10,514 bases of DNA, taken from the NCBI GenBank assembly GCA_025937035.1, contig JAICSG010000075.1, positions 1-10,514 of the forward strand. The letters are read 5' to 3'. Both the position numbers and the translations under genes were made by a program. Within the stretch, counting starts at the first letter, position 1. Each line of letters opens with the position of its first letter. The notes under the pieces were generated by a model. It searched no databases, had not been told where the DNA came from, and saw only the letters and a list, made by a program, of their open reading frames with translations. Source of the DNA: Thermoanaerobaculia bacterium. Lineage in GTDB: Bacteria; Acidobacteriota; Thermoanaerobaculia; Multivoradales; UBA5704. This document shows positions 3,160 through 10,514 of this stretch, piece after piece.

Positions 3160-3558
3160 CTACTTCGTCGCCGCGGCCTTGCAGGCGCCCTTGTGAGCCT
3201 CACGGGCGCCGGCCGTCAGCAGCTCACACAGGTTGTCGTAGGTCTTGTTGTCGCAGCCGCAGACCTTGGCGCCGCCCTTGGGGCAGGGGCTCTTGACCTT
3301 GACGCAGGTGCCGGCGAGGTCGGCGACGTTGCACATGTTGGCGGGGTACCGGCAGGCCTGCCCCTCCGGGCACTTGAGGCCGGCGATGCCGCCGCACATC
3401 GCGCCCTTCTTGGCCGACGAGGACGAGGAAGAGGTGCCGCCGCCGTAACCCTTCGCCTTGTTGTCACCGGATGACTGCGACCACGCGGAAGTCGCCACGC
3501 CGACCAGCAGAATCAGCGCGAAGCACAGACACAGCTTGACGATCGCCTTCTGAACCAT
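3160..3558 (-). CDS. Secreted Kazal-type protease-inhibitor-like protein
   Basis: 132 residues. Signal peptide at 1-28 (hydrophobic LCLCFALILLVGVA, cut near AWSQ), a Gly/Ser linker with six serines in a row (43-48), then ten cysteines at 55, 63, 69, 76, 85, 92, 100, 102, 111 and 126. The C-terminal half, VCGCDNKTYDNLCELLTAG followed by C126, is the Kazal signature (PF00050/PF07648) with the bacterial CGCD in place of CGSD. The first half (MCGGIAGLKCPEGQACRYP) is the small Cys-rich module that often precedes it in bacteria. Kazal domains bind serine proteases tightly; whether this one inhibits anything is not known. The start at ATG 3558 is fixed by a perfect AGGAGG (3566-3571) at 7 nt and by the signal peptide; the longer frame to 3606 is rejected. 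The membrane-protein gene ends 55 nt upstream on the same strand, so the two may share a transcript. Confidence 0.85.
   Translation of the reverse strand: MVQKAIVKLCLCFALILLVGVATSAWSQSSGDNKAKGYGGGTSSSSSSAKKGAMCGGIAGLKCPEGQACRYPANMCNVADLAGTCVKVKSPCPKGGAKVCGCDNKTYDNLCELLTAGAREAHKGACKAAATK
3184..3210 (+). terminator. Bulged 11-bp hairpin at the convergent junction, possible terminator of the serine hydrolase
   Basis: GGCGCCC (3184-3190) pairs with GGGCGCC (3204-3210). After a TT bulge, GTGA (3193-3196) pairs with TCAC (3200-3203) around a GCC loop. It begins 28 nt past the hydrolase stop codon and lies inside the last codons of the Kazal gene. No T-run follows, so termination activity is inferred from structure and position only. 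Confidence 0.4.
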
Positions 3559-3565
3559 GAGCGAG

Positions 3566-3571
3566 CCTCCT
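3566..3571 (-). promoter_or_regulatory. Strong Shine-Dalgarno deciding the Kazal gene start
   Basis: AGGAGG on the minus strand, 7 nt before ATG 3558, preceded by a run of five A. It excludes the longer in-frame start at 3606. Confidence 0.8.
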
Positions 3572-3577
3572 TTTTGT

Positions 3578-3604
3578 GGAACCGCCACGACAACGCGGTG
3601 TTCC
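3578..3604 (-). other. Short imperfect inverted repeat between the membrane-protein and Kazal genes
   Basis: GGAACCGC (3578-3585) and GCGGTGTTCC (3595-3604) form an 8-bp stem with a 2-nt bulge and a 9-nt loop, between the two genes and just before the Kazal Shine-Dalgarno. It may be a weak terminator or a leader structure; no T-tract follows. Confidence 0.25.
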
Positions 3605-3613
3605 AAGGATAGC

Positions 3614-4273
3614 TCAAAAAAGCGAGGAAATCCCCTGCCAGATCCACCAGATCCCGACCAGGCGGAAAATCCAGAGCAGATTGCGCACCCCCAGCAGGAA
3701 GAAGTTGTGGACCGGGAACGGCACCTCTACAGGTGAGTGCTCGCGGGCGGCGAGGTAGCCGAACGCTGCCACGTTCACGGTGATGCCCACCACCAGCTTG
3801 AACCAGTTGGTGGCGAAGGGCACGGGGGCTGGCTGCCCCGCGGCGGAGACGGCGAGCGCCGTGAGCAGGAAGAGGAGAGGGAGGAAGATCCCCAGCCGTA
3901 GCGGCCAGCGCCAGAGGTGGAGGAAGGAGAAGAAGCGCGCCGCCGGCTCGCGGTGCCGGGCGCAGCAGCGGGCGGCGACCGTGCGGCCTCCCGCGGCGCG
4001 CAGCTCCAGCTCCACAGGCTCGCGAGGGGGCACCCGGTTGCACCAGAGGCATTTGCTCTCGCGCACCCGTTCCATGTACGGCCGGGCGATGAAGCGGTGG
4101 CCGATCATCAGCACGACCCCCGCGGCGAGGCTCACCCCCACCGGCGCCGGATGGCGGACGAAGAGGAACAGCACCACCGGGATGAACAGGAAGAGGAGGA
4201 CGCCCGCCGTGTAGACGGCGAGGGGGTTGGGAGCGGCGGAAGCCGCCGGCGGAGTCGAGTCTGGAATCGCCAT
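3614..4273 (-). CDS. Multi-pass membrane protein with a CxxC...CCxxH zinc-type motif, unknown function
   Basis: 219 residues; I do not recognise the family. Predicted membrane segments lie near 18-39 and 45-62, then 124-146, 156-176 and probably 190-210. Between the second and third is a soluble loop of about 60 residues holding C75-L-W-C78, then C103-C104 and H107, the spacing of a zinc ribbon or rubredoxin-like site. The loop is Arg-rich (RVRESK before the motif, ARHREPAARFF after it), which by the positive-inside rule suggests a cytoplasmic face. The C-terminus is rich in Trp and Phe (NLLWIFRLVGIWWIWQ). ATG 4273 is the only reasonable start. It has no Shine-Dalgarno, but a CATAAT element (4285-4290, minus) lies 11 nt upstream, compatible with a very short leader. 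The Kazal gene follows 55 nt downstream on the same strand. Confidence 0.75.
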   Translation of the reverse strand: MAIPDSTPPAASAAPNPLAVYTAGVLLFLFIPVVLFLFVRHPAPVGVSLAAGVVLMIGHRFIARPYMERVRESKCLWCNRVPPREPVELELRAAGGRTVAARCCARHREPAARFFSFLHLWRWPLRLGIFLPLLFLLTALAVSAAGQPAPVPFATNWFKLVVGITVNVAAFGYLAAREHSPVEVPFPVHNFFLLGVRNLLWIFRLVGIWWIWQGISSLF

Positions 4274-4284
4274 GAGAGGGGCGG

Positions 4285-4290
4285 ATTATG
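4285..4290 (-). promoter_or_regulatory. -10-like element close to the membrane-protein start
   Basis: CATAAT on the minus strand matches TATAAT at 5 of 6 positions and lies 11 nt before ATG 4273, putting transcription start a few bases from the start codon. No Shine-Dalgarno and no clear -35 are present. Confidence 0.35.
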
Positions 4291-4321
4291 CCACGGCCCG
4301 GAAGGAACGAGGATCTCTGGA

Positions 4322-4337
4322 TGGCTCACGGCTTGCA
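4322..4337 (+). promoter_or_regulatory. Candidate sigma-54 promoter of the seven-gene glycan operon
   Basis: TGGCTCA-CGGC-TTGCA: exact GG-N10-GC spacing, perfect TTGCA at -12, and TGGC at -24 with two mismatches to TGGCACG. Predicted start near 4348 leaves a 36-nt leader that keeps the Shine-Dalgarno at 4374-4378. It is weaker than the two matches in the 1109-1369 gap. Confidence 0.5.
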
Positions 4338-4383
4338 TTTACGGAACATATGAGATGAGCTGTGTCTTCCGTGAGGAGCATGG

Positions 4384-5310
4384 ATGTCCGGGTTGAGAGC
4401 GACGTTTCGCGGTGGTGTGAGCAGAGGACAGACGCACGGATCGCCTTGGGAGTGGGAGGGTCTCGCGAGGGAGTTTCCAGCGGTCCGGCTCCAGGAGATC
4501 CCGGGAGATCCCGGGACCGGCGTCCCTTCCCTTCCGCTTCAGGTCGAGGAGTGGGAATCCCAAAATTTCAACTTCTACGAGATGGACGGGCGTCTCGACG
4601 CCCTGGCCGAGCGGGATTTCGGGCCCTTCGCCGTTGACGTTCTCGGGGGACCCGGGGAGCTGGCGCGGGCGGCGGGCGAGATCCTCACCCGGTGCCAGAG
4701 ATGGATGGACCGCCGCAACGAGGCCTCCCGCGGCGCCCTCTTCGACCGCGTCCTCATCCAGCACCGGGGCTCCCATGATCTCGCCAAGCCGCTGGTGAGG
4801 GCCGACTACGACCATGCCCTGGACACCTGGCAGTGGGTGCTCCGGCTGGCCCCGGACGCGGACCTCGCCACGCAGCTCGCGGCCCTCTTCCACGACGTCG
4901 AGCGCCTGGCCTCCGAGGCCGACGCGCGCGTCGAGCACCACGCCGCCGACTACCAGGCCTTCAAGAACGATCACGCGGAGCGCGGGGCCGAATTGGCGGA
5001 GGCCCTTCTGGCCTGGGTGGGAGTCGATGCCGGAACGCGGGAACGGGCGGCCCGTCTGATCGCCGCGCACGAGCACCTTCCCGAGCCGGGGGATCCGGAC
5101 GCGGCGGCCCTCTCCCTGCTCAACGACGCGGACGCGCTCTCCTTCTTCTCCCTCAACAGCGCCGGCTATCTCGACTACTTCGGGCCGGAGGCGACGCGGC
5201 GCAAGGTGGCCTACACCCTGCGGCGGCTGCGGCCGGAGGCCCGCCGGTATCTGGACGGCCTGCGCCTGCGCCCGGCGGTGGCCGCGGAGCTGGAGGCCCT
5301 GGCCGCATGA
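4384..5310 (+). CDS. HD-domain phosphohydrolase-like protein, first gene of the glycan operon
   Basis: 308 residues. Residues 1 to about 66 are low in recognisable features and include a 10-bp tandem repeat at DNA level. Residues 85-135 are helical (AAGEILTRCQRWMDRRNE). An HD-superfamily metal site follows: H144 (YDHALDTW), H170-D171 (LFHDVERL), H197 (NDHAERG), H229/H231 (AAHEH) and D248/D250 (NDADAL). The spacing fits HD phosphohydrolases, which cleave phosphate esters of nucleotides or sugar nucleotides. The substrate is unknown; in this operon a phosphorylated sugar or nucleotide product is a reasonable guess. The start at ATG 4384 has AGGAG (4374-4378) 5 nt upstream. An in-frame ATG at 4582 (M67) lacks one, though the true conserved region may begin near there. 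The stop overlaps the next start as ATGA. Confidence 0.75.
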   Translation: MSGLRATFRGGVSRGQTHGSPWEWEGLAREFPAVRLQEIPGDPGTGVPSLPLQVEEWESQNFNFYEMDGRLDALAERDFGPFAVDVLGGPGELARAAGEILTRCQRWMDRRNEASRGALFDRVLIQHRGSHDLAKPLVRADYDHALDTWQWVLRLAPDADLATQLAALFHDVERLASEADARVEHHAADYQAFKNDHAERGAELAEALLAWVGVDAGTRERAARLIAAHEHLPEPGDPDAAALSLLNDADALSFFSLNSAGYLDYFGPEATRRKVAYTLRRLRPEARRYLDGLRLRPAVAAELEALAA

Positions 5311-6377
5311 AGCTGGTCATCTTCGGGCTGACGATCAGCTCCTCCTGGGGCAACGGCCACGCCACCCTCTGGCGGGGGCTCTGCCGGGCGCTGGCCCGCA
5401 ACGGCCACCGCGTGGTCTTCTTCGAGCGGGACGTCCCCTACTATGCCATCCACCGCGATCTCCGGGAGCTGCCCGGCACCGACCTGAGGCTCTATCCGAG
5501 CTGGGAGGAGGTCCTGCCCGCGGCCCGCCGGGAGGTGGCGGATGCCGACGCGGCCATGGTCACCTCCTACTGCCCGGACGGCGAGGCGGCCTCCGGGCTC
5601 GTCCTCGCGACCGACGGGCCGCTGGCGGTCTTCTACGATCTCGACACCCCGGTGACGCTGGACCGGCTCAAGCAAGGCGAGCAGGTCCCCTATCTCCCAG
5701 CCGAGGGCTTGAGCGGCTTCGACCTGGTGCTCTCCTACACCGGCGGCCGGGCCCTGGACGAGCTCCGGGACCGCCTCGGCGCCCGCCGGGTGGCCCCCCT
5801 CTACGGCAGCGTCGATCCGGAGGTCCACCGCCCCGCCGAGCTCAACCCCAACTTTCAGGGGGATTTCTCCTACCTGGGCACCTACGCCGCCGACCGTCAG
5901 GAGGCGCTGGAGCGGCTCTTCCTGGAGCCGGCCCGGCGGCTGCCCGGGAAGCGCTTCGTGATCGGCGGCGCCCAGTATCCGGTCGACTTCCCCTGGGGGA
6001 GCAACCTCTTCTTCGTCCGCCACCTGCCGCCGGCGGACCACCCGGCCTTCTACGCCTCCTCGCCCTTGACGCTCAACGTGACCCGCGCGGCCATGGCCGG
6101 GATGGGCTACTGCCCCTCGGGTCGGCTGTTCGAGGCGGCCGCCTGCGGCACGGCCGTGCTCTCGGACACCTGGGAGGGGCTCGACCGCTTCTTCGAGCCG
6201 GGGCGGGAGATCTTCACCGCCAGGAGCACGGAGGAGGTCTTCGAGATCCTGTCGCTCCCCCCGGAGGAGATCCGCAGGGTGGCCCGCGCCGCCCGGGAGC
6301 GGACGCTGGCCGAGCACACGGCGGAGCGGCGGGCGGCGGAGATGGTGGAGCACATGAGAGTGGGGGTGTCGGCATGA
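5307..6377 (+). CDS. CgeB-like glycosyltransferase (GT-B fold)
   Basis: 356 residues, cytoplasmic. N-terminal Rossmann half: MKLVIFGLTISSSWGNGHAT, then VVFFERDVPYY (typical of the CgeB-type family) and VFYDLDTPVTL. C-terminal half matches Glyco_trans_1_2 (PF13524): DFSYLGTYAADRQ, RPLPG-type helix, LNVTRAAMAGMGYCPSGRLFEAAACG, then a WEGLDRFFEPGREIF block followed by the C-terminal helix. In this family the FEAAACG region and the following Glu bind the nucleotide sugar donor. CgeB of Bacillus subtilis takes part in modifying the spore surface; donor and acceptor here are unknown. It starts inside the stop codon of the HD gene (ATGA) and ends inside the start of the nucleotidyltransferase gene (ATGA), so it is translationally coupled on both sides. 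Confidence 0.88.
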   Translation: MKLVIFGLTISSSWGNGHATLWRGLCRALARNGHRVVFFERDVPYYAIHRDLRELPGTDLRLYPSWEEVLPAARREVADADAAMVTSYCPDGEAASGLVLATDGPLAVFYDLDTPVTLDRLKQGEQVPYLPAEGLSGFDLVLSYTGGRALDELRDRLGARRVAPLYGSVDPEVHRPAELNPNFQGDFSYLGTYAADRQEALERLFLEPARRLPGKRFVIGGAQYPVDFPWGSNLFFVRHLPPADHPAFYASSPLTLNVTRAAMAGMGYCPSGRLFEAAACGTAVLSDTWEGLDRFFEPGREIFTARSTEEVFEILSLPPEEIRRVARAARERTLAEHTAERRAAEMVEHMRVGVSA

Positions 6378-7114
6378 GCGTCTGGGGGATCGTGCCCGCC
6401 GCGGGCATGGGGAGCCGCATCCAGCCGCTCGCCTTCTCCAAGGAGCTCCTCCCGGTCGGCACCCGGATCGCCGATGGGACCGAGCGCCCGAAGGCGGTCT
6501 CGGAGTACCTGGTCGAGCGGATGATCCTCGCCGGCGCCACCCGCATCTGCATGACGATCTCGCCGGGCAAGTCCGATATTGTCGAGTACTACGGCGGCGG
6601 CTTCGGCCCGGCGCACGTCTGCTACGTGGTGCAGCCGGAGCCCAAGGGGCTGTGCGACGCCCTCTTCCGGGCCGTCCCCCTGATCGGGCCGGACGACCAG
6701 GTGCTGATCGGCCTGCCGGACACCGTCTGGTTCCCCGAGGACGGCCTGCGCCGGCTCCCCGCGGACGCGCTCTCCTTCCTCCTCTTCCCCGTCGATCATC
6801 CGGAATTCTTCGACGCCGTGGTGACGGGCGAGGAGGGGCGGGTGCTGGAGATCCAGGTCAAGCGGCCGGGCGCAGCCAGCTCCTGGGTCTGGGGGGCCTT
6901 CCGCATGCCCGGCCGGGTCTTTCACGACCTCCACGCCCTCTGGACCGAGCGCGAGGGGCGGGACGTGTACGTTGGCACCCTGGTGAACGAATGGCTGGCG
7001 CGGGGGGGCGAGGCCCGCGGGGTCCGCGCCGGCGAGTCCTACGTGGACGTGGGGACTCTCCACGGCTACCGCGAGGCGATTCAACTCTTGGAGCGACGCG
7101 AGGTGATGGTGTGA
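6374..7114 (+). CDS. Sugar-1-phosphate nucleotidyltransferase (RmlA/GalU-like)
   Basis: 246 residues, NTP_transferase fold (PF00483). The nucleotide-binding loop is intact: GIVPAAGMGSRIQPLAFSKE, with G11-x-G13-S-R15 and K23, followed by LLPVG. LPDT near residues 117-120 supplies one metal-binding Asp, and YVDVGTLHGYREA near the C-terminus carries the second (D in DVGT). It would make an NDP-sugar from NTP and sugar-1-phosphate, feeding the two glycosyltransferases in the operon. The sugar and base cannot be assigned. The length is short but complete for single-domain members; there is no left-handed beta-helix extension. The start overlaps the upstream stop (ATGA, 6374-6377) and the stop overlaps the next start (GTGA, 7111-7114). 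Confidence 0.88.
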   Translation: MSVWGIVPAAGMGSRIQPLAFSKELLPVGTRIADGTERPKAVSEYLVERMILAGATRICMTISPGKSDIVEYYGGGFGPAHVCYVVQPEPKGLCDALFRAVPLIGPDDQVLIGLPDTVWFPEDGLRRLPADALSFLLFPVDHPEFFDAVVTGEEGRVLEIQVKRPGAASSWVWGAFRMPGRVFHDLHALWTEREGRDVYVGTLVNEWLARGGEARGVRAGESYVDVGTLHGYREAIQLLERREVMV

Positions 7115-7995
7115 TCGAAGCCGTGAAGCTGTGGAACGAGCCGAACAACAAGTCCCACTGGGACTTCGAGATCGACTCCGACTGGAAGCTGTTCGCCCGC
7201 ATGGCCTGCCTCGCGGGGGAGGCCGTGCGGGGGGAGAACGGCTCGCTGACCCGCGTCCTGGGCGGGATCTCGCCGATCGACGCCAAGTTCGTCCTCAACA
7301 TGAAGGAGCAGGGGGTGCTCGACCAGGTCGACGCCATCGCCGTGCACGGCTTCCCCCTCGACTGGAACCACTGGCAGATCCACGAATGGCCCGACCGGCT
7401 GGCCGAGATCCAGGCGCTGACCGATCTGCCGGTCTGGGTGACCGAGGTGGGGGTCTCGACCTTCGGCGCCGAGGAGGTGCAGGAATTCGGCCTCCGCCGC
7501 ACCGCCGAGCTCCTCCTCGGCCGCGCCCCCCGCATCCACTGGTACAGCCTTTACGACCTGCCGCGCGCCTGGCCGGCCACCACCCGCCACCGCGAGGCCG
7601 AGGGGTCCTCCTACTACCGCCACTTCTACATGGGTATCCTGCGCGAGGACGGCACTCCCAAGCTTTCCCTCAAGCACTTCTCGGACTACACCCCCGAGAT
7701 GGGCATCTGCCAGTGGTTCCATTTCGAGGACCACCGCCTGGACGACGCCGTGCGCTGGCTGCGGCGGCTCGGGGTGAAGAGGCTGCGCACCGGCCTCTCC
7801 TGGGCGGACAGCTTTCGCCCCAACGCCGACGCCTGGTTCGACCGCCAGATGAAGGCCCTCGACGAGCTCGACGTCACCCTCACCTACTGCTTCACTCCGG
7901 AGCACCGCGGCATCCAGCCGCACCATACGAGCCCCCCGCAATGTCTGGAGGAATACGCGGATTTCTGCGCCCGGATGACTCGACGCTACGCGTGA
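7111..7995 (+). CDS. Clan GH-A glycoside-hydrolase-like TIM barrel, apparently circularly permuted
   Basis: 294 residues, GTG start at 7111 overlapping the previous stop. No signal peptide. It opens directly with VKLWNEPNN (acid/base Glu10, normally after strand 4, about 130-160 residues into GH39/GH5-type barrels). Strand 5 (RVLGGIS, 48-54), strand 6 (DAIAVHG, 74-80), strand 7 with nucleophile Glu112 (WVTEVG) and strand 8 (RIHWYSLYD, 141-149) follow, then the usual barrel ending MGILREDGTPK. After that comes what looks like the first part of such a barrel: GICQWFHFED (198-207), VKRLRTGLSWADS (222-234), VTLTYCFTPEHRG (255-267) and EYADFCARMTRRYA at the C-terminus, which in a normal enzyme runs straight into the NEP strand. 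Both catalytic Glu are kept, so activity is plausible: trimming, transglycosylation or a cytoplasmic glycan step. A fusion of two barrel halves from different proteins is the alternative. Confidence 0.8.
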   Translation: MIEAVKLWNEPNNKSHWDFEIDSDWKLFARMACLAGEAVRGENGSLTRVLGGISPIDAKFVLNMKEQGVLDQVDAIAVHGFPLDWNHWQIHEWPDRLAEIQALTDLPVWVTEVGVSTFGAEEVQEFGLRRTAELLLGRAPRIHWYSLYDLPRAWPATTRHREAEGSSYYRHFYMGILREDGTPKLSLKHFSDYTPEMGICQWFHFEDHRLDDAVRWLRRLGVKRLRTGLSWADSFRPNADAWFDRQMKALDELDVTLTYCFTPEHRGIQPHHTSPPQCLEEYADFCARMTRRYA

Positions 7996-8765
7996 GCCCG
8001 CGCGTCCTGATCGTCGTGGCCCACCCGGACGACGAGGTGGTGGGAGCCGGCGCCCTGATCTCCCGGCTGCCGGACGTCTGGATCCTCCACGCCACGGACG
8101 GCGCCCCCCACGATCCCCGCTTCATGGCGCGGAGCTTCGCGGGGAGCCGCGAGGAGTACGCCCGGGCGCGGCGCCGGGAGCTCGAGGAGGCCCTGGCCCT
8201 GGTGGGGGTGGGGCCCGACCGCTTGCTGAGCCTCGGGATCGCCGACCAGGAGGCCGTCTTCGAGATCCCCCGGCTGGCCGAGGGGATCGCCCGCGCCGTC
8301 CGCGAGATCCGGCCGGATACCGTGCTGACCCTCGCCTACGAGGGGGGGCATCCGGACCACGACGCGGTGGCCCTGGCCGTCCAACTGGCGGTGGAGGGGA
8401 CCGCGATCCTGGAGATGCCGCTCTACCACGCCAGGCCGTGGACGGAGAGCATGGTGGTCGCCAGGTTCCTCCCCGGCCCGCCCGGGGGGCGCCTGACCCT
8501 GACCGAGAGGGAGCGGGACCTCAAACGGCGCATGATCGAGACCTTCGTCACCCAGGCCGAGACGCTCCGTGCCTTCCTCCCTCCGCGCGACGAGCCGTTC
8601 CGTCCCGCCCCCCCTTACGACTTCACCCGCCCGCCGCACCCGGGGCGCCTGCAGTACGAGATCTGGGGGTTTCCCATCGATGGGAAAAGGTGGCGGGAAA
8701 CCGCGAAATCCCACCTTTCTCTGGCGTCTTCCTTGCACGTGTCGTCTCACGATGTTGGTTGTTGA
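7992..8765 (+). CDS. PIG-L/LmbE-family de-N-acetylase
   Basis: 257 residues, GTG start at 7992 inside the previous stop (GTGA). PIG-L fold (PF02585): RVLIVVAHPDDEVVGAG gives the zinc motif H11-P-D-D14-E15, and GGHPDHDA gives H120-x-x-H123, the third ligand region. The family removes the acetyl group from N-acetylglucosamine linked to inositol, malate, lipids or antibiotics (PIG-L, MshB, BshB types) and is zinc-dependent. This supports an N-acetylhexosamine in the product of the operon. The C-terminal tail after GFPIDGKRWRE (about 25 residues) looks non-conserved, and it overlaps the next gene by 14 nt. Cytoplasmic; no signal peptide. Confidence 0.88.
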   Translation: MSPRVLIVVAHPDDEVVGAGALISRLPDVWILHATDGAPHDPRFMARSFAGSREEYARARRRELEEALALVGVGPDRLLSLGIADQEAVFEIPRLAEGIARAVREIRPDTVLTLAYEGGHPDHDAVALAVQLAVEGTAILEMPLYHARPWTESMVVARFLPGPPGGRLTLTERERDLKRRMIETFVTQAETLRAFLPPRDEPFRPAPPYDFTRPPHPGRLQYEIWGFPIDGKRWRETAKSHLSLASSLHVSSHDVGC

Positions 8766-9780
8766 AGTCGCCTACCCGTTCGCTCCCGTGGGTCCAGATG
8801 CCGTAGGAGGTGCCGAGCAGATTCTGCCCCTGCTCGCCGGGGCTCTCGGGCACCGCTCGGTCGTCATCGCCCAAGAGGGCTCGTCCTGCCGGGGGACGCT
8901 GCTGCCCATCCCCGCGTTGGAGAATCTGGACGCGCGGTCGCAGGCCGAGGGTCATGTCCACGTCCGGCGGGCTATCGCCGAGGCCCTGGAGCGGTTCCCG
9001 GTCGACCTGATCCATTTCCACGGCGTCGACTTCCCGGCCTATCTGCCGCCGGACGGCCCGCCGGCCCTGGCGACCCTCCACCTGCCGATCCATCTCTACC
9101 CGTCCGAGGCGCTCTTCCCCCGCCGGCCCGGGACGTGGCTCCACTGCGTCTCGGAGTCCCAGCGGCGGGACGTCCCGCCGGGTGCCCCCCTGCTGGGGAC
9201 CGTGCCCAACGGGGTGGATCTCGCGGCGCTCCGGCCCGGCCGCCGCAAGCGGGAGCTCGCCCTCTGCCTCGGCCGGATCTGCCGCGAGAAGGGATACCAC
9301 GAGGCCCTCGACGCGGCGCGGGAGGCGGGGGTGCCTCTGGTCCTCGCCGGCGAGGTCTTCCCCTACGAGGATCACCGGCGCTACTTCCGGGAAGAGATCG
9401 AGCCGCGGCTGGGGCCGGGGGCCCGCTTCCTGGGCCCCTTGGGGCTCGCCCGCAAGCGGCGCCTGCTGGCGGCGGCGCGCTGCCTGATCGTCCCCAGCCG
9501 CATCGCCGAGACCAGCTCGCTGGTCTCCATGGAGGCGCTGGCCTGCGGCACCCCCGTGGTGGCCTTCCGCGCCGGCGCCCTCCCCGAGATCGTCGAGCAC
9601 GGCCGGACGGGCTTCCTGGTCTCGGACGTCCCCGAAATGGTCCGGGCCCTCCGGGAGGTCGCAGCGCTCGATCCCGCTGTCTGCCGCGCGGAGGCCGAGC
9701 GGCGCTTCTCCGCCGAGGCCATGATCTCCCGCTATTTCGACCTCTACCGCCAGATCGCGGCCCGGACCGTCCATGTTTGA
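8752..9780 (+). CDS. GT4-family glycosyltransferase
   Basis: 342 residues, GT-B fold. The N-terminal acceptor half begins MLVVEVAYPFAP with the GGAE loop (GPDAVGGAEQILPLLA), and includes DLIHFHGVDFP (DxxHxH) near residue 90. The C-terminal donor half (PF00534) starts after VPNGVDLAALRPG: CLGRICREKGYHEAL, LVLAGEVFP, and the catalytic E-x7-E pair E253-TSSLVSM-E261 followed by ALACGTPVVAF. It is a retaining transferase that uses an NDP-sugar, as in MshA, BshA and many polysaccharide enzymes; donor and acceptor are unknown. The ATG at 8752 lies inside the end of the PIG-L gene (14-nt overlap) and has no clear Shine-Dalgarno, so translation probably depends on coupling. Its stop overlaps the next start by 8 nt. 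Confidence 0.9.
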   Translation: MLVVEVAYPFAPVGPDAVGGAEQILPLLAGALGHRSVVIAQEGSSCRGTLLPIPALENLDARSQAEGHVHVRRAIAEALERFPVDLIHFHGVDFPAYLPPDGPPALATLHLPIHLYPSEALFPRRPGTWLHCVSESQRRDVPPGAPLLGTVPNGVDLAALRPGRRKRELALCLGRICREKGYHEALDAAREAGVPLVLAGEVFPYEDHRRYFREEIEPRLGPGARFLGPLGLARKRRLLAAARCLIVPSRIAETSSLVSMEALACGTPVVAFRAGALPEIVEHGRTGFLVSDVPEMVRALREVAALDPAVCRAEAERRFSAEAMISRYFDLYRQIAARTVHV

Positions 9781-10514
9781 GATCGAGGAAATACCAGACC
9801 TGGAGGCGTTGCGCGGCGAATGGTCGGATCTCTGCGACCGCTCTCCGCGCGTCACCCCGTTCCAGCGTCCCGAGTGGCTGATCCCCTGGGTCCGCGCCTT
9901 CCCGCCTGGAGAGCCGTGGGTGATGGCGGTACGGAAGGAAGGACGGCTGATCGCGCTTGCGCCGCTGCTCGTCTACCCCAACGAGGGGAAGCGGACCGTG
10001 GCCTTCTGCGGTGGAGGCGTCTCGGACTATTGCGACGTGGTGACCGATCCGGACGGCGAGGAGGAGGCCGTCGCCGCCCTCCTGGCCCATCTGGCGGCCC
10101 ATCGGGACCGCTGGGATATGGCGGATTTCGAGCCCCTTCCCGGCGACAGCCCGCTCCTCCGGATCTCCCAGGGGTCTATCGAGACGCGGGACGTCTGCCC
10201 GGGGCTCGACCTGCCGGACCGGGTGGAGGATCTCCATGAGGTTGTCCCCACCCGCCAGCTCGCCAATCTGAGGAAATACCGCCGCAAGGCCGAGAAGCTC
10301 GGCGAGCTCCGCCTCCACGGCGACGGTTCCTGGGAGGAGAAGCTGGAAATCCTGCTTCGCTTCTACCTGGCCCGCCGGGGTGAGCAGGACGGGGACACTC
10401 TCCGGGCCTTTCACCGGGAAGTCGCGACCGGCTTCCACGCCCGAGGCGCCCTGGGGCTCCACCTGCTCTGCCTGAACGGCGATCCCCTGGCCGGCCTCTA
10501 CGGCTTCCGGGAGA
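9773..10514 (+). CDS. CelD/FemAB-like GNAT acyltransferase, first 247 residues, cut by window end
   Basis: The frame is open from ATG 9773 (inside the end of the GT4 gene) to the window end. The N-terminus has the CelD/BcsL-type pattern: LEALRGEWSDLCDRS, then TPFQRPEWLIPWVRAF, then GRLIALAPLLVY. The second half contains LANLRKYRRKAEKLG, followed by a helix and LHLLCLNGDPLAGLYGFR, the start of the acetyltransferase core of Acetyltransf_6 (PF13480, BioF2-like). Such proteins belong to the GNAT superfamily and resemble the FemAB peptidyl and aminoacyl transferases; members are often found in polysaccharide gene clusters. Next to a PIG-L deacetylase it could acylate the freed amine of the sugar. 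The C-terminal catalytic part lies outside the window, so the assignment rests on family pattern. Confidence 0.75.
   Translation, partial: MFEIEEIPDLEALRGEWSDLCDRSPRVTPFQRPEWLIPWVRAFPPGEPWVMAVRKEGRLIALAPLLVYPNEGKRTVAFCGGGVSDYCDVVTDPDGEEEAVAALLAHLAAHRDRWDMADFEPLPGDSPLLRISQGSIETRDVCPGLDLPDRVEDLHEVVPTRQLANLRKYRRKAEKLGELRLHGDGSWEEKLEILLRFYLARRGEQDGDTLRAFHREVATGFHARGALGLHLLCLNGDPLAGLYGFRE

Follow-up and report, generated by a model that had tools for sequence, protein, structure and literature searches.

A naturally circularly permuted clan GH-A glycosidase, predicted to serve glycan synthesis, in bacteria of about ten phyla

Circular permutation of a TIM barrel in nature is, to our knowledge, rare. 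Among barrel glycosidases, such a permutation relates GH70 to GH13 (clan GH-H), the GH70 glucansucrases being large extracellular multidomain proteins with a permutation point other than the one described here. In this work, we focus on a gene, hereafter pGH, carried by a 10,514-nucleotide contig from a Thermoanaerobaculia bacterium of the Acidobacteriota (assembly GCA_025937035.1, contig JAICSG010000075.1; the whole stretch is referred to as the window), whose product is related to the (beta/alpha)8 glycosidases of clan GH-A by a natural circular permutation. The Pfam and PDB searches with pGH turned up no match to GH13 or GH70, with which no direct comparison was made, and no report of a clan GH-A circular permutant was found among the open-access PMC papers listed, as judged from titles and the opening lines of abstracts.

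The best solved relative of pGH by profile comparison is PslG (PDB 5bx9, 4zn2), which we take to be a member of GH39 and of clan GH-A. It is encoded within the exopolysaccharide-synthesis (Psl) cluster, and differs from pGH by its ordinary strand order, its 416-residue chain and its operon. Published passages place it at the membrane or in the periplasm as well as inside the cell, and it is reported to be a retaining endo-beta-glucosidase (PMC11912335). Its loss, or mutation of its catalytic site (residues E165 and E276), alters Psl localisation and signalling, according to PMC9075953. A second precedent is MmpH, an alpha-endomannosidase for which no homology to pGH is claimed. The fold of MmpH is other than that of pGH. 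As stated in PMC9883506, its gene adjoins sugar methyltransferase and glycosyltransferase genes, and the enzyme cuts mature methylmannose polysaccharide, yielding primers for new chains. Both precedents explain how a glycosidase can belong to a synthesis cluster.

The open reading frame had first been noticed in a sequence-only reading of the window, and it proved real, with a GTG start at 7111, a stop codon at 7993-7995 and a product of 294 amino acids. This GTG and the stop codon of the preceding nucleotidyltransferase gene overlap (GTGA), and the pGH stop is in turn overlapped by a GTG from which the PIG-L gene that follows could start; these stop-start overlaps on either side set pGH within a gene run. 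A scan of GTDB genomes by peptide pattern retrieved at least 595 stretches, at least 569 of which encode a relative, and the best 80 were analysed. As had been anticipated, homologues share the start: the codon position is identical in 76 of the 80 (ATG in 63, GTG in 12, TTG in one), lies one codon earlier in three and corresponds to neither in the last (L070). An in-frame stop is found at most five codons upstream of the start in 12 of them, and all 80 products measure 293 to 319 residues. On this comparative evidence, the start site of pGH is genuine.

In all 80 homologous loci, at 72-87% identity, strands 4-8 are encoded ahead of strands 1-3, so that the architecture is shared rather than unique, a point that the sequence-only reading had left as an impression. 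Judged by the titles of their records, these loci belong to about ten phyla, and include Acidobacteriota, Myxococcota, alpha-, beta- and gammaproteobacteria, Verrucomicrobiota, Planctomycetota, Gemmatimonadota, Bacteroidota, Nitrospirota, Actinomycetota and former Deltaproteobacteria. Since they were chosen as best matches to a permuted query, they are uninformative on the frequency of ordinary-order relatives. The 10.5 kb contig that forms the window comes from a fragmented assembly of 1254 contigs, a setting in which truncation or mis-assembly of an ordinary barrel, or motifs read by chance, could mimic a permutation. However, the permuted form is also present in complete chromosomes (Ramlibacter terrae, Sorangium So ce26) and on pSymB, and such an artefact, to which we attach a negligible probability, was rejected because homologues in complete genomes share the permuted order.

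With regard to the fold, an AlphaFold2 model built with an alignment of 43 rows (A1) was obtained with a mean pLDDT of 86.8 and a pTM of 0.87. The strands assigned by DSSP span residues 4-7, 47-50, 75-80, 108-113, 142-145, 197-200, 224-230 and 254-260, with helices between them, as in a (beta/alpha)8 barrel. In the model, they follow each other as strands 4 to 8, then 1 to 3, each occurring once. The order 4-5-6-7-8-1-2-3, with the C-terminus leading back to the N-terminus, had been read from the letters alone, and is seen in both the predicted structure and the alignments. The old ends are joined through about three residues, between the helix at 187-193 and the strand at 197-200. Neither an incomplete barrel, nor an unrelated second barrel, nor a loss of the N-terminal strands appeared, and none of the 80 loci carries a second strand 1-3 segment in the flank analysed. 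A relic of a tandem-duplication intermediate was likewise looked for in these flanks and none was found; near L049, a fused ordinary-order paralogue extends past the flank scanned for second strand 1-3 copies.

The permutation is also visible when pGH is compared with proteins of ordinary order. The closest of these, L115 solo (37.6% identity over 287 residues), aligns with native pGH in two swapped pieces of 88.2 and 72.8 bits (residues 195-294 on 5-105, and 5-184 on 111-297), and with pGH rotated at residue 194 in a single alignment covering residues 1-284 at 150 bits. Native pGH also falls into two swapped pieces against the three other ordinary-order targets, namely the L115 fusion, L101 and L014. 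When the cut point was scanned, the best single-domain profile score was obtained at 194 for L115 solo (207.2), the L115 fusion (161.4) and L101 (131.4); for L014 the score at this cut, 84.2, lies within 0.1 bit of the best, cuts 165 to 194 being equal within 0.6 bit. As a control, rotation of the ordinary-order L115 solo gene splits its alignments into two. For L011, a further ordinary-order target, rotation of pGH raises the score from 32.4 to 42.6 bits. The new ends correspond to a single gap in the alignment with L115 solo, and therefore little was lost; the removal of about six residues by the re-cut was considered and rejected, the alignment having one gap at the join.

The same behaviour is observed with PslG. 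With the native A1 profile, it comes first among relatives of solved structure, at E 1.2e-6 and split into two pieces in opposite order (198-293 on 22-128, and 3-166 on 132-303). A profile of eight rotated sequences aligns in one piece (6-252 on 25-300, E = 2.6e-10), a comparison unevenly matched with 43 versus 8 sequences, and addition of the ordinary-order relatives to the rotated profile extends it to 7-299 on 21-327 with an E-value of 3.7e-19. Homology with clan GH-A follows from these two matches. In single-sequence searches of the PDB, native pGH gave chance matches only, and the rotated sequence had PslG as top match (E 0.022). The expectation that a rotated copy would give one continuous and higher-scoring match thus holds against ordinary-order homologues and PslG. 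It did not hold for the Pfam profile PF11790 (Glyco_hydro_cc), whose score barely changed (17.8 to 18.4 bits, below the cut-off) because the sole matching stretch lies within one segment.

The predicted catalytic residues occupy the places expected in clan GH-A, N9-E10 following the strand at 4-7 and E112 standing at the end of the strand at 108-113. They align with the catalytic pair of PslG (Table 1), the spacing from 139 to 250 in the PslG chain being 111, as between E165 and E276. Glu10, Glu112, His79, Arg226, Trp231 and Trp144 are invariant in the 50 permuted sequences compared (window included), and alignment A1 comprises 91 invariant columns with a mean column identity of 73%. This conservation bears on the alternative that the permutation is real and the barrel non-catalytic, pGH acting as a carbohydrate-binding or scaffolding protein. 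Such a role is suggested by the seven ordinary-order proteins examined (L101, L117, L118, L119, L121, L135 and L115:3362-6940), which are fusions of a barrel with an NAD epimerase, and share 23-31% identity with the rotated window protein. The nucleophile position is occupied by Ala in four of them and by Gly in L121, and the acid/base position by Asn in L121 and L135, so that six lack at least one Glu, only L115:3362-6940 retaining both. These six are probably, judging from their sequences, dead barrels serving as domains of a sugar epimerase, and the wider family therefore yields apparently dead barrels. The invariance of both Glu and of four further active-site-type residues in all permuted sequences, together with the invariant columns of A1, nevertheless makes a non-catalytic pGH distinctly improbable. 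As a separate observation, L115:3362-6940 is an epimerase–GH-A barrel–epimerase triple fusion, in a frame of 1192 aa, that belongs to the same cluster as L115 solo.

Family models say little about pGH. It matched no NCBIfam family at E <= 1, and PF11790 reaches 17.7-17.8 bits over residues 72-126, below its gathering score of 21 (19.2 bits, still sub-threshold, with the strand 4-8 part alone), this model matching 34 of the 43 A1 members at E <= 0.01. The GH39 model PF01229 matches neither the native nor the rotated window protein, and the A1 members match three families of which it is not one; the ordinary-order L014 matches it with 39.2 bits (cut-off 26). Public databases already contain the pGH family, and the name that it was seen to carry there is beta-xylosidase. 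Among the matches listed, 11 of 30 Sinorhizobium records bear this annotation (146 have a match), and the other 19 have no annotation under the match; that relatives so annotated exist had been a tentative impression of the sequence-only reading. A degradative beta-xylosidase would agree with this product name on pSymB, with the presence of GH39 beta-xylosidases among the weaker profile matches and with an ABC transporter, annotated for amino acids, about 11 kb off on that replicon. However, pGH has no space for a signal peptide before strand 4, the annotated neighbours are mostly of glycan-synthesis types, no xylan-use gene was seen among them (none being systematically searched for), and PslG is matched at E 3.7e-19 versus 2.1e-5 for the best xylosidase. 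The label on the Sinorhizobium records is unsupported by the evidence presented here, and we regard a degradative role as very improbable.

Table 1. Features of the window and of related loci. Numbers of loci with relatives are lower bounds (tblastn, E <= 1e-8, flanks of at most 5 kb, some contigs being short).
Feature	Position	Strand	Evidence
pGH, circularly permuted clan GH-A glycosidase, 294 aa	7111..7995	+	ORF, alignment, AlphaFold2 model
Strand 4-8 segment, residues 1-194, old C-terminal helix at its end	7111..7692	+	Model strands 4-7 to 142-145; residues 5-184 align to L115 solo 111-297
Strand 1-3 segment, residues 195-294	7693..7992	+	Model strands 197-200 to 254-260; aligns to L115 solo 5-105
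Glu10, predicted acid/base (WNEPN)	7138..7140	+	Aligns with PslG chain position 139 = E165 (constant offset 26)
Glu112, predicted nucleophile (VTEVG)	7444..7446	+	Aligns with PslG chain position 250 = E276 (constant offset 26)
HD-domain / DUF4202 protein	4384..5310	+	PF13875 E 9.5e-22; relatives in 12/80 loci
CgeB-like glycosyltransferase (Glyco_trans_1_2)	5307..6377	+	PF13524 E 1.7e-41; relatives in 43/80 loci
Sugar-nucleotidyltransferase-like protein	6374..7114	+	PF00483; relatives in 40/80 loci
PIG-L (GlcNAc-PI de-N-acetylase-like) protein, likely GTG start	7992..8765	+	PF02585 E 3e-24; relatives in 13/80 loci
GT4-family glycosyltransferase, start approximate	8752..9780	+	PF13692, PF00534
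Acetyltransf_6 (GNAT) protein, runs off contig	9773..10513	+	PF13480 E 6.2e-11; relatives in 10/80 loci
Ordinary-order barrel-epimerase fusions	L101:3622-5814, L117:7849-10038, L119:1856-4048
Ordinary-order barrel-epimerase fusions	L118:10575-12836, L121:349-2385, L135:367-2436	-	

The permuted and ordinary-order forms were also surveyed across taxa. Of the 396 genomes surveyed in the phylum of the window, nine carry the permutant, one of them (G348) in pieces; G207 and G062 gave weak matches only, to ordinary-order proteins. The G348 gene (L010/L013) is split over two overlapping frames and looks broken, and this genome has no TIGR04290 match. Six of the 148 genomes of the class of G396 had matches; the ordinary order occurs in single frames of G396, G481, G533, G538 and G539, and the permutant in G396, G437, G533 and G539, with both forms a few kb apart on one contig in G396 and G533. 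Seven of the 395 genomes of the phylum of G481 had matches, six with the permutant (G661, G736, G789, G818, G868 and G909) and three with ordinary-order frames (G481, G661 and G868).

The fusions differ from pGH by their strand order 1-8 and their epimerase domains, and L115 solo by its strand order 1-8. The latter (L115:14657-15646) is an unfused gene of 329 residues in G481, which overlaps through TGATG a preceding methyltransferase gene of TIGR04290, an unnamed NCBIfam family (337 bits, cut-off 300). This slot is the one that the permutant holds elsewhere, for instance in L029, where the methyltransferase spans 4232-5008 and the permutant begins at 5001.

Relatives of the L029 methyltransferase (TIGR04290) are found in 53 of the 80 loci, directly upstream (within 250 nt) in 49, and other neighbours, counted as in Table 1, comprise an epimerase (26 loci), a GT9-like protein (19), a pyruvyl transferase (8) and an FrhB-like protein (8). 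A protein encoded close to the permutant in Bacteroidota and in Ramlibacter (L044:6117-7022, and L019:6533-8062 on the minus strand) looks GT9-like by eye; neither copy has a Pfam match, and the L044 copy has no NCBIfam match. TIGR04290 was detected in 10 of the 396 genomes of the window's phylum at E <= 1e-60, in eight of them above the cut-off, and all eight also carry the permutant (Fisher 6e-16; 3e-14 when the two genomes below the cut-off are counted as well; both values uncorrected for relatedness). In the window's own genome, the methyltransferase is encoded on another contig, of 5.2 kb (G000:C1250), which also carries a Glyco_trans_1_2 glycosyltransferase. In locus L138 (G305), a TIGR04295 B12-radical SAM protein, a UDP-glucose dehydrogenase and two epimerases are encoded near the permutant, and on S. 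meliloti pSymB the permutant annotated as beta-xylosidase is followed just downstream by a polysaccharide pyruvyl transferase gene, with glycosyltransferase genes about 8-12 kb upstream. The co-occurrence of permutant and TIGR04290 points to one undescribed pathway: no mention of TIGR04290, Rta_06860, TIGR04295 or DUF4202, and by title no paper about the gene cluster around pGH, was found in the open-access PMC literature. Elsewhere in the window, positions 3160-3606 of the minus strand encode a small cysteine-rich protein, secreted-looking and Kazal-like by eye.

Taken together, we consider it likely that pGH is an intact permuted clan GH-A glycosidase, re-cut from an ordinary-order ancestor, and a cytoplasmic retaining beta-glycosidase acting on the glycan of its operon. 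The direction of change would have been from ordinary to permuted: an ordinary-order ancestor residing in a glycan-synthesis operon may have been opened in the loop that leads from helix 3 to strand 4 and closed at its original termini, where some three residues now link helix 8 to strand 1, and the permuted gene may then have spread, or been kept, with the operon across many phyla. Strand 4 begins at residue 4, which leaves no space for a signal peptide and therefore suggests a cytoplasmic location; together with the gene context, this suggests an enzyme serving glycan synthesis. Glu10 would act as acid/base and Glu112 as nucleophile in retaining cleavage or transfer of a beta-glycoside, the substrate presumably being the glycan that the neighbouring glycosyltransferases, epimerases and TIGR04290 methyltransferase make, either as an intermediate or as a product. 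Its role might be trimming, chain-length control or recycling of this glycan, presumably methylated, in the course of its synthesis, as for PslG with Psl and MmpH with methylmannose polysaccharide, the methyltransferase link favouring the MmpH-type pattern over the PslG-type.

Because pGH is set among synthetic enzymes, it could instead be a transglycosidase that builds or rearranges the glycan. The GH70 enzymes, the other well-known permuted barrel glycosidases, are transglycosylases, which speaks for this alternative. No sequence feature tested tells a transglycosidase from a hydrolase, and the nearest solved relative, PslG, is reported as a retaining endo-beta-glucosidase; we therefore hold a transglycosidase to be unlikely, although less so than a non-catalytic protein.

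Several observations weigh against a re-cut glycosidase as proposed above. With regard to the permutation, the A1 rows are close homologues only (58-88%), L012 gains only from 29.7 to 32.2 bits on rotation, with a flat score across most cuts that does not discriminate, and barrel closure and the Glu10–Glu112 distance are deduced from DSSP, pTM and homology rather than read directly from the model. Foldseek comparison of the model with the PDB gave weak matches to assorted TIM barrels; in the 50 listed out of 1647, the best TM to the query is 0.48 and glycosidases are a minority. This is as expected when a sequential aligner is applied to a permuted chain, and brings no positive evidence. With regard to origin, G481 is the only genome in which an ordinary-order gene was seen to hold the operon slot. 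In a tree of 61 sequences, permuted and ordinary-order rows are mixed through long branches, and the unconstrained topology does not unite the permuted sequences; their forced union is not rejected (p-AU 0.585 vs 0.415), the constrained tree being not worse than the unconstrained one. A single origin of the permuted form is compatible with these sequences and not proven by them. With regard to function, 27 of the 80 loci have no TIGR04290-type methyltransferase match in the flank, the same is true genome-wide of one of the nine pGH genomes of the window's phylum (G348, with the gene in two frames), and the glycosidase activity of pGH is predicted from its sequence.

A more far-reaching reading, which we put forward tentatively and with less than even confidence, is that pGH may represent the first case of circular permutation to be found in nature within clan GH-A, arisen in place in a conserved operon slot and widespread in about ten phyla, and that it may cut a methylated chain, for length control or self-recycling, in an undescribed methylated-glycan pathway marked by TIGR04290 and TIGR04295. 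Since the permuted form, ordinary-order cousins and one ordinary-order gene in the same slot all exist, how the permutation came about and what it changes can be tested directly, and pGH is a marker of a glycan pathway that is widespread and linked to the TIGR04290 methyltransferase.

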